Shown: positions 41,722-43,181 of the stretch, in pieces
Position numbering within the stretch: the first letter of the stretch is position 1
How the letters are laid out: each line of letters starts with the position of its first letter
Assembly: GCF_002115785.1 (NCBI RefSeq)
Contig: NZ_JFJY01000002.1
Coordinates: 434,001 to 498,000, forward strand
Direction of reading: 5' to 3'
Length of the DNA stretch: 64,000 nucleotides
DNA from: Thalassospira sp. MCCC 1A03138
GTDB lineage: Bacteria; Pseudomonadota; Alphaproteobacteria; Rhodospirillales; Thalassospiraceae
Made by a program: the position numbers and the translations under genes
Notes under the pieces: model-generated
Database searches by the model: none
The model's input: the letters and a program-made list of their open reading frames with translations, nothing else
Told to the model about the DNA's origin: nothing

Positions 41722-41760
41722 AAAAAGCGCATTTGCTAGAAAGTTGCAAATGCGCTTTTT
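41722..41760 (+). terminator. Rho-independent terminator after the XRE gene
   Basis: AAAAAGCGCATTTGC and GCAAATGCGCTTTTT form a perfect 15-bp stem around a 9-nt loop. The T-run is part of the stem and the A-run on the other side makes it bidirectional in form. It separates the miaB-xre operon from metK. Confidence 0.93.
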
Positions 41761-41883
41761 CTTTGTTTCCTTCGAATTTCTGGCCGAAATGCATCAGGCG
41801 CGTTACGCTTATGCGTCGATCTTTCTTGACCCGAAAATGTCATTGGGGCAAAACCGCAGCTAGGGTGATAAGCCCAATTGAAT

Positions 41884-41933
41884 ACGTGGACGGATTTGGA
41901 CCGCTTGCCACCACGTTAAAAAAGGCTAAGTGG
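41884..41933 (+). ncRNA. SAM-II-like riboswitch aptamer in the metK leader
   Basis: The 50-nt element has the SAM-II architecture. P1 is ACGTGG/CCACGT (41884-41889 with 41911-41916). The 21-nt loop contains GATTTGGACCGCTTGCCA. A single-stranded A-rich stretch follows P1, then GGCTAAGTGG. The pseudoknot can form as CCGCTT (41901-41906) with AAGTGG (41928-41933) and GCC (41907-41909) with GGC (41924-41926), leaving T41927 unpaired. That is where the SAM-II structure places a ligand-contacting U in its conserved GCUAA. It lies in a 310-bp region without genes (41699-42008), 75 bp before metK, whose product makes S-adenosylmethionine. SAM-V and SAM/SAH RNAs are related alternatives. Confidence 0.8.
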
Positions 41934-42003
41934 GCGCAATTGGTGCAAACTTGTACCGATGCCCTCCGGTCCAGTTGTGGAACTCCTTTTTTACCGGAGA
42001 AGG
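41932..42003 (+). promoter_or_regulatory. Probable expression platform of the metK riboswitch
   Basis: Directly after the aptamer, ATTGGTGCAA (41939-41948) pairs with TTGTACCGAT (41951-41960, two G-U), and GGGC (41932-41935) can extend it with GCCC (41961-41964), competing with the aptamer pseudoknot strand. Next, CTCCGG (41964-41969) pairs perfectly with CCGGAG (41994-41999), which contains the metK ribosome-binding site (GGAGAAGG). This suggests translational control by site occlusion; the exact switch is inference. Confidence 0.55.
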
Positions 42004-42008
42004 TTTGA

Positions 42009-43181
42009 ATGTCTCTTTCCGAATATCTTTTTACCAGTGAGTCGGTTTCCGAGGGTCACCCGGACAAGGTCTGTGACCGCATTTCCGATTCCATCGTTGA
42101 TGCGTTTCTGGCCGCCGATGAAGATTCTCGCGTTGCCGTTGAGACTCTGGCAACCACCAATCGTGTGGTTTTGGCGGGCGAAGTTCGCGGTCCTGAGAGC
42201 GTTTCCAAGGAAGTCATGATCGAAAAGGCACGCGAAGCTATCCGTGCCATCGGTTATGAGCAGGAGGGCTTTCACTGGAAAACGGCCGAAATCGAGTGCC
42301 ACGTCCACGAGCAGTCTGCTGATATTGCCCAAGGTGTTGATTCAGCTGGTGAGAAAGACCTAGGTGCGGGTGATCAGGGCATCATGTTCGGTTATGCCTG
42401 TAACGAAACCGATGAGCTGATGCCAGCTCCGATCCAGTTCTCGCATCGTATCCTGCGTAAAATGGCTGAAGACCGCCATTCCGGTAAATCGGCTGAGTTT
42501 GGTCCGGATGCAAAAAGCCAGGTTACCCTGCGTTATGTGGATGGCAAGCCGGTTGGCGCGACCTCGGTAGTTGTTTCGACCCAGCATGCAGATGGCCTTA
42601 ATCAGGCTGATGTCCGCTCACTGGTTATGCCCTATATCGAGAACATCCTTCCGGAAGGATGGATGCCTGCAGAAGACGAGATTTACATCAACCCGACGGG
42701 CCGATTTGTTATTGGCGGTCCCGATGGCGACGCCGGTCTGACTGGTCGTAAAATCATCGTTGATACATATGGTGGTGCGGCCCCGCATGGAGGTGGCGCA
42801 TTCTCGGGTAAAGATCCGACCAAGGTTGACCGTTCGGCTGCTTATGCTGCCCGTTATCTCGCGAAAAACGTGGTTGCTGCTGGTCTGGCTGAGCGCTGCA
42901 CCATTCAGGTTGCCTACGCGATCGGTATTTCCAAACCGTTGGCTCTTTATGTGAATAACCATGGCACTGGTAATGTGGATGAAATCAAACTGGGCAGCGT
43001 TCTGCGCCAGTTGATGGACCTCAGCCCGCGTGGCATTCGCGAACATCTCTCGTTGTGCCGTCCGATTTACACCCCGACTTCTGCTTACGGTCATTTCGGG
43101 CGTCAGCCGCAGGACGATGGTCGCTTCTCTTGGGAGCGCACCGATCTGGTGGGGGATCTGAAATCGGCATTTGGTGCATGA
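42009..43181 (+). CDS. metK: S-adenosylmethionine synthetase
   Basis: Makes S-adenosylmethionine from methionine and ATP. The 390-residue protein has [19 protein letters not shown] at the ATP/methionine site, the [12 protein letters not shown] hexapeptide region, and the P-loop-like [19 protein letters not shown]. The ATG lies 5 nt after GGAGAAGG, which is covered by a predicted hairpin of the riboswitch leader. trmB follows. Confidence 0.98.

Follow-up and report, generated by a model that had tools for sequence, protein, structure and literature searches.

Structure of the metK leader

The window (the whole stretch of DNA that was analysed, 64,000 nucleotides) carries on its plus strand a gene for an S-adenosylmethionine (SAM) synthetase, which we take from its sequence to be metK. 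The leader of this gene contains a pseudoknot RNA that resembles the aptamer of SAM-II, a model riboswitch with a solved structure. The aptamer, an adjoining hairpin and the gene are arranged as follows.

41884–41889, plus strand: 5′ strand of P1, ACGUGG, read from the sequence; the P1 pairs are kept in homologues
41893–41909, plus strand: aptamer loop L1, GATTTGGACCGCTTGCC, comprising the GAUUU third strand (equivalents of U10–U12) and the 5′ strand of the pseudoknot
41911–41916, plus strand: 3′ strand of P1, CCACGU, forming six pairs with 41884–41889
41924–41933, plus strand: 3′ strand of the pseudoknot, GGCTAAGTGG (also given as GGCUAAGUGG), the partner of 41901–41909
41930, plus strand: G replacing A47 of SAM-II and facing C41904 (position 19)
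41939–41960, plus strand: hairpin P3, pairing 41939–41947 with 41952–41960, from the minimum-energy fold and the genus alignment
42009–43181, plus strand: metK, S-adenosylmethionine synthetase, 390 amino acids, with homologues in every one of the 29 genus genomes

In the window, L1 reads GAUUUG at its third strand. The pseudoknot consists of nine pairs, namely C41909-G41924, C41908-G41925, G41907-C41926, U41906-A41928, U41905-A41929, C41904-G41930, G41903.U41931, C41902-G41932 and C41901-G41933, and leaves U41927 unpaired as the equivalent of the bulged U44. A preliminary description of this DNA had proposed a 6-bp P1, a loop and a nine-pair pseudoknot with one unpaired U, and all of these are present in the sequence where it placed them. 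Hairpin P3 varies in sequence among the species of the genus while its stem is retained through compensating changes, as seen by eye in the alignment (GATAC-GTATC in L136, ACACC-GGTGT in L132). Minimum-energy folding did not single out the leader (z -1.26; in 20 of 200 shuffles the fold was equally good or better). It cannot represent a pseudoknot and is uninformative as evidence for the structure of this leader.

Resemblance to known RNA families

No Rfam family reached its gathering score in the window. When 801 bases were analysed with cmscan, the top-scoring family was RF01726, with 37.7 bits against a gathering score of 44 (E 1.9e-5, and 2.6e-5 over the whole genome); RF00521 followed with 25.7 bits against 36 (E 0.0014). 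The resemblance to SAM-II exceeds chance, with sub-threshold yet significant scores in both SAM-II families, because these E-values are joined by an 18-base loop, GGATTTGGACCGCTTGCC, that is identical upstream of metK in all 29 genomes of the genus. In control genomes at E up to 10, RF01726 gave matches in 10 of 14, above its cut-off in one, and RF00521 in 14 of 14, above its cut-off in none; at E up to 0.01, RF00521 matched in none of them. Neither RF01826 (SAM-V) nor RF01727 (SAM/SAH) matched the 801 bases at E up to 10, which rules out membership of either family; as a positive control, cmscan with RF01727 located SAM/SAH elements just upstream of metK in 5 of 20 other loci. The Infernal search suggested in the preliminary description therefore returns RF00521, below threshold, and neither RF01826 nor SAM/SAH. 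The Rfam thresholds overlook the metK variant in 19 of the 20 metK loci tested, the window's own included; the one copy that attains the RF00521 gathering score is L192.

The same genome holds two further SAM-II RNAs. One (C3:120431) scores 44.8 bits with RF00521, above the cut-off, and lies upstream of a metZ-like sulfhydrylase gene; the other (C32:165757) scores 33.9 bits and lies upstream of a metN-like ABC transporter ATPase gene, both gene names coming from a reading of the translations. All 28 remaining genus genomes likewise have two RF00521 matches apiece, with scores of the same two kinds.

Distribution and linkage to metK

The genus probably belongs to the order Rhodospirillales. Homologues of metK were also found at 80 named alphaproteobacterial loci, the best 80 of the scan. 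Five of these carry the element or a divergent form of it (L012, L026, L036, L045 and L046), all with CTAAG; L012 and L026 apparently come from genomes that were sampled in the order set too. Among 31 order-level relatives, nine weak RF00521 matches were read. Seven precede metK (L152–L158), each with CTAAG, and the remaining two stand before metY-like genes (L150, L151) with CTAAA.

A covariance model, R1, was built from 13 metK copies; its specificity rests on the metK neighbour, the searches having been run without control genomes. Within the order, 196 of the 297 genomes, from 66 of the 111 genera, contain a match at E up to 0.01, and about 170 of the 297 match at E up to 1e-6 (counted from the match table). 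Eighty further order loci were taken from the better R1 matches, and metK lies downstream in 79 of them, with L278 stopping at a contig end; as the order matches read are the best ones, those at E of about 1.5e-8 to 0.01 may hide an A47 copy before metK. A class-wide sample gave matches in 33 of 385 genomes, where those lacking a fetched locus may likewise include an A47 copy before metK. Nine strong matches outside the order (E up to 2e-8; L190–L198) also precede metK. None of the 18 weak class-level matches read (L200–L217) has metK downstream; most of them are classical SAM-II RNAs of the A47 type, and two or three match by chance. In all 94 aligned copies, metK starts within 350 nt downstream.

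The evidence thus strongly supports a metK-dedicated pseudoknot RNA that resembles SAM-II. The preliminary description had called the element a SAM-II-like riboswitch controlling metK, and the metK-dedicated pseudoknot part of that claim stands (29 of 29 genus genomes; metK in 94 of 94 copies).

Conservation and covariation

The alignment, A3, comprises 94 chosen loci, of which 93 distinct copies were used for pairing counts. It omits near-duplicates (L180, L191, L193, L194, L222, L239, L247, L256, L262, L281, L282, L292), 23 of the 29 genus genomes as being close to loci kept, the contig-end cases L270 and L278, L293 with its missing 3′ half, the weak class-level L200–L217, and L036, L045 and L046.

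Over the whole structure, 98.6% of cells are paired in the 93 copies, against 29-46% when partners are slid. The pseudoknot helix reaches 97.7%. Five pairs were counted in P1, all of whose cells are paired (100%) and three of which show two-sided changes, a count biased in favour of P1 by the fitting of the alignment to it. Two-sided changes occur in 16 cells (P1, 13; pseudoknot, 3), against 1.9 in shuffles. On the P2a side, pair 17-49 is C-G in 58 copies, U.G in 30, G-C in 2, U-A in 1 and unpaired in 2; pair 18-48 is G.U in 72, A-U in 16, G-C in 2 and unpaired in 3; and pair 19-47 is C-G in 92 and U.G in 1. Taken alone, the four P2a-side pairs show mostly one-sided changes, with 3 two-sided cells. 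Of 500 shuffles, 13 attain their covariation score and 313 show at least as many two-sided pairs. The P2a pairing is supported mainly by conservation, rather than covariation.

All 94 copies retain the equivalents of U10, U11, U12, U20, U21, G22, C23, C43, U44, A45 and A46. At the position of G42 the window has G, as do 84 of the 94 copies; 5 others have U and 5 have A. In these ten copies with U or A (A3 column 58), the C23-G42 pair may be replaced by a different register. In four metK copies (L261, L263, L266, L269), an additional A separates G22 from C23. One further metK leader, L293 (G036, about 300-350), has P1 and L1 and lacks the 3′ strand of the pseudoknot; it may be a natural deletion of the aptamer, in which case metK expression there may be constitutive.

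A guanine in place of A47

The equivalent of A47 is G in 94 of 94 metK copies, and the base opposite is C in 93 and U in 1. At classical SAM-II loci the same position is A in all 49 that were read, including those before metZ and metN of the same genome; 52 loci were given and 49 recognised (L201, L205 and L216 were missed). The 49 count one site twice, as L002 and L004, and include some further loci that are nearly identical. Whether A47 has been replaced, or has been lost with the next G shifted up, the adenine is missing either way.

For SAM-II, the accessible part of PMC3764141 lists U10-U12, U20, U21, G22, C23, C43, U44, A45 and A46 as completely conserved in the pocket and G42 as conserved, and describes A47, the base that reads the amino-acid end (the tail) of SAM, as completely conserved too. 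In SAM-V, the corresponding A50 is reported to hold the SAM tail via N6 and N1, and inosine at this position to cause a severe loss of SAM binding (PMC6061858, accessible part). A G paired to C would have its tail-reading edge occupied. Because the tail-reading adenine is replaced by a C-facing G, we regard the element as a variant, not a member, of SAM-II. The preliminary description was silent on the G at position 47.

A strict form of the rule, in which G47 would stand solely before metK, is ruled out by two metY-like leaders of one class-level genus, L202 (plus strand, about 1725-1780) and L206 (minus strand), which carry GCUAAGCG with a G47-like base. Nearby, a classical A47 SAM-II lies on the opposite strand, upstream of a metZ-like gene. 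The divergent metK leaders L045 (about 2763-2815) and L046 (about 2835-2890) have GGTCTAAGCTATCC in place of GGCTAAGTGGGC; position 48 is C facing G there, which fits a continuous helix.

The ribosome-site platform

Between P3 and metK lie the segments that could connect the aptamer to the ribosome site.

41964–41970, plus strand: anti-Shine-Dalgarno strand, CUCCGGU, overlapping segment X, with its partner at 41993–41999; identical in 19 aligned genus leaders
41967–41974, plus strand: segment X, CGGUCCAG, complementary to UUGGACCG of L1 (41896–41903)
41993–41999, plus strand: ACCGGAG strand of the ribosome-site hairpin; only the first A varies among the 19 genus leaders (G in L124)
41996–42003, plus strand: Shine-Dalgarno region of metK, GGAGAAGG, identical in the 19 aligned genus leaders

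The strands 41964–41970 and 41993–41999 form a seven-pair hairpin that takes in the first half of the metK Shine-Dalgarno region. This is the hairpin that the preliminary description had set over the metK ribosome site, and a translational platform there finds support in the sequence; the alternative pairing of L1 had escaped that description. The pseudoknot would face competition from this pairing, between L1 and X. The Shine-Dalgarno region offers X, together with the bases immediately 5′ of it, a second possible partner, and the two pairings therefore compete, the GGUCC segment being able to pair either with the aptamer loop or with the ribosome site.

A variable position in the L1-X helix was scored in 70 of the 94 leaders, the 24 others being 23 with L1 outside the pattern and L153 without X in range. 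C or U in L1 is matched by G or A in X in 65 of the 70 (Fisher p 1.7e-5, relatedness uncorrected): X has G in 59 of 61 leaders with C in L1, and A in 6 of 9 leaders with U. The two C-A mismatches (L237, L243) occur in leaders that hold GGUCC too. The best L1-X helix scored 15.9 on average, against 15.2 in permuted leaders (0 of 1000 as high) and 12.7 with shuffled downstream sequence. Blocking X raised the mean predicted accessibility of the Shine-Dalgarno region from 0.215 to 0.338, against 0.228 for random blocks, in the 82 of 94 leaders that have X by pattern (the other 12 stand outside the score). The shift is modest: accessibility rose by more than 0.2 in 25 of the 82 and fell by more than 0.2 in 2, and in the window's own leader it went merely from 0.00 to 0.22.

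Proposed mechanism and ligand

The structure, its conservation, the association with metK, the G47 facing C19 and the two competing complementarities can be read from the sequences themselves. We propose, with a probability of roughly 0.6, that the element is a metK-specific SAM-II variant that shuts off translation of the SAM synthetase, with SAM as the likeliest ligand and its tail read differently.

As to ligand, direction of switching and affinity, we infer the following course of events. Bound ligand, most likely SAM, would lock L1 in the pseudoknot triplex and leave X free; free X, together with the bases just before it, would then pair with the Shine-Dalgarno region and turn metK translation off. 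When ligand is absent, X would pair with L1, and the ribosome site would open to turn metK on. The pocket bases of SAM-II at the adenine end and the sulfonium end are retained in the metK variant, and G47 is able to pair with C, such that P2a and P2b can form one continuous helix. The SAM tail would need a different mode of recognition, or would scarcely be read, and weaker SAM binding would be expected. Such a looser aptamer could keep metK on until SAM is high, with the A47-type copies shutting metZ and metN earlier. SAM is plausible as the likeliest ligand, since the bases that read the sulfonium and the adenine persist and SAM is the product of metK itself. In the genus, decarboxylated SAM is an unlikely ligand, given that none of the 29 genomes yielded SpeD (PF02675) and that SpeE (PF01564) was not found in the source genome; SpeD is present in 20 of the 60 genomes searched, all of other families.

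More tentatively, the element could form a separate, SAM-II-derived class, dedicated to metK throughout the order, that by a remodelled tail-reading site either binds a ligand other than SAM or has a novel positive hold on the SAM tail. Such a hold, if true, would be of a kind that no solved SAM aptamer shows.

It is unlikely, in our assessment, that the change from A47 to G has moved the aptamer to another ligand in the manner of the spermidine-sensing variants of SAM-I. In favour of such a move, only the tail-reading base of the pocket list differs in every copy, being G in all 94 where each of the 49 classical loci read has A; two of those A47 copies belong to this very genome, a loss of ordinary SAM binding would be predicted from what inosine does in SAM-V, and SAM-aptamer variants with a new ligand have a precedent in the accessible literature (PMC10853860). 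Against these points, the sulfonium-reading triple U11, U21 and A45 and the adenine contact U44 are kept in 94 of 94 copies, and the gene is a SAM synthetase in all 94. A G47-like base is also found in the two metY-like leaders of one genus (L202, L206), metY being a classical SAM target, and the failure to find SpeD and SpeE noted above speaks against decarboxylated SAM in the genus.

We consider it improbable that the element is an ordinary SAM-II that binds SAM as in the crystal structure and tolerates a functionally meaningless G. In its favour, none of the 94 copies departs from the eleven other listed pocket bases, G42 being left aside, and L192 attains the gathering score of RF00521. 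However, the G never varies among the 94 copies and its C partner hardly does, with no drift, at a position described as completely conserved adenine in SAM-II (PMC3764141, accessible part). The G at 47 would argue against ordinary SAM binding because inosine at the SAM-V equivalent severely reduces binding (PMC6061858, accessible part).

Control by transcription attenuation through the same aptamer, rather than by ribosome access, is very improbable and not favoured: GGAACTCC followed by T6 in the window would suit it, and most SAM-II RNAs reportedly act on transcription (PMC6061858, accessible part), but a run of at least four T is present there in merely 9 of 19 aligned genus leaders, the other 10 having CCCATTACC instead, the scan lists no terminator-like stem at the T-run site, and the ribosome-site pairing is kept in 19 of 19 (one A-to-G change, L124).

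Comparison with known systems

The metK-specific variant shares with SAM-II (RF00521, SAM_alpha) the H-type pseudoknot, P1, the GAUUU third strand, the UUGC/GCUAA core and the bulged U, as well as the occurrence in alphaproteobacteria at methionine and SAM genes. It differs in the G for A47 facing C19, in its metK target and in a P2a that can continue from P2b without a spacer. In the accessible part of Leyn et al. 2014 (PMC4239095), SAM_alpha is limited to Rhizobiales and Rhodobacterales, with none in 9 Rhodospirillales genomes; the targets named there are metY, metA, hom, metX, metC and metW, and metK is not among them. The long-loop form of SAM-II (RF01726), described from Bacteroidetes and marine sequences in the accessible part of PMC2864571, differs in that its consensus retains the A after GCUAA.

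SAM-V (RF01826) has the same kind of pocket and is a translational OFF switch, as is proposed for the metK element; in contrast, it has A50, which is needed for SAM binding (PMC6061858, accessible part), and its P2a includes the ribosome site, where the metK element uses a separate hairpin. SAM/SAH (RF01727) is likewise a small, metK-dedicated pseudoknot of alphaproteobacteria, reported from Rhodobacterales (PMC2864571, PMC7367207, accessible parts), with a sequence different from that of the metK element. The spermidine riboswitch of Oceanobacillus damuensis is also a variant of a SAM aptamer before metK, but derives from SAM-I and has another fold (PMC10853860, accessible part). The SAM-II of Sinorhizobium meliloti metA is similarly predicted to hide the Shine-Dalgarno sequence, whereas its target is metA, and metK serves there as a tool that sets SAM levels (PMC9373788, accessible part).

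In the literature examined, which leaves subscription papers largely outside, we found no description of a SAM-II element upstream of metK. If the proposed reading is true, it would mean product-feedback control of the SAM synthetase in these bacteria. The G47 before metK and the A47 before metZ and metN, within one genome, would constitute a natural experiment on a change of ligand or of set-point.

Sequences upstream of the leader

Upstream of the leader, at 41722-41765 and 3′ of a helix-turn-helix-like gene, the window has a GCGCATTTGC/GCAAATGCGC hairpin followed by a T-rich stretch. This hairpin is perhaps the terminator of the upstream gene, in which case metK would need a promoter of its own. 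A simple scan gave no sigma-70-like promoter and lists a different, weak terminator-like stem at 41797-41817.
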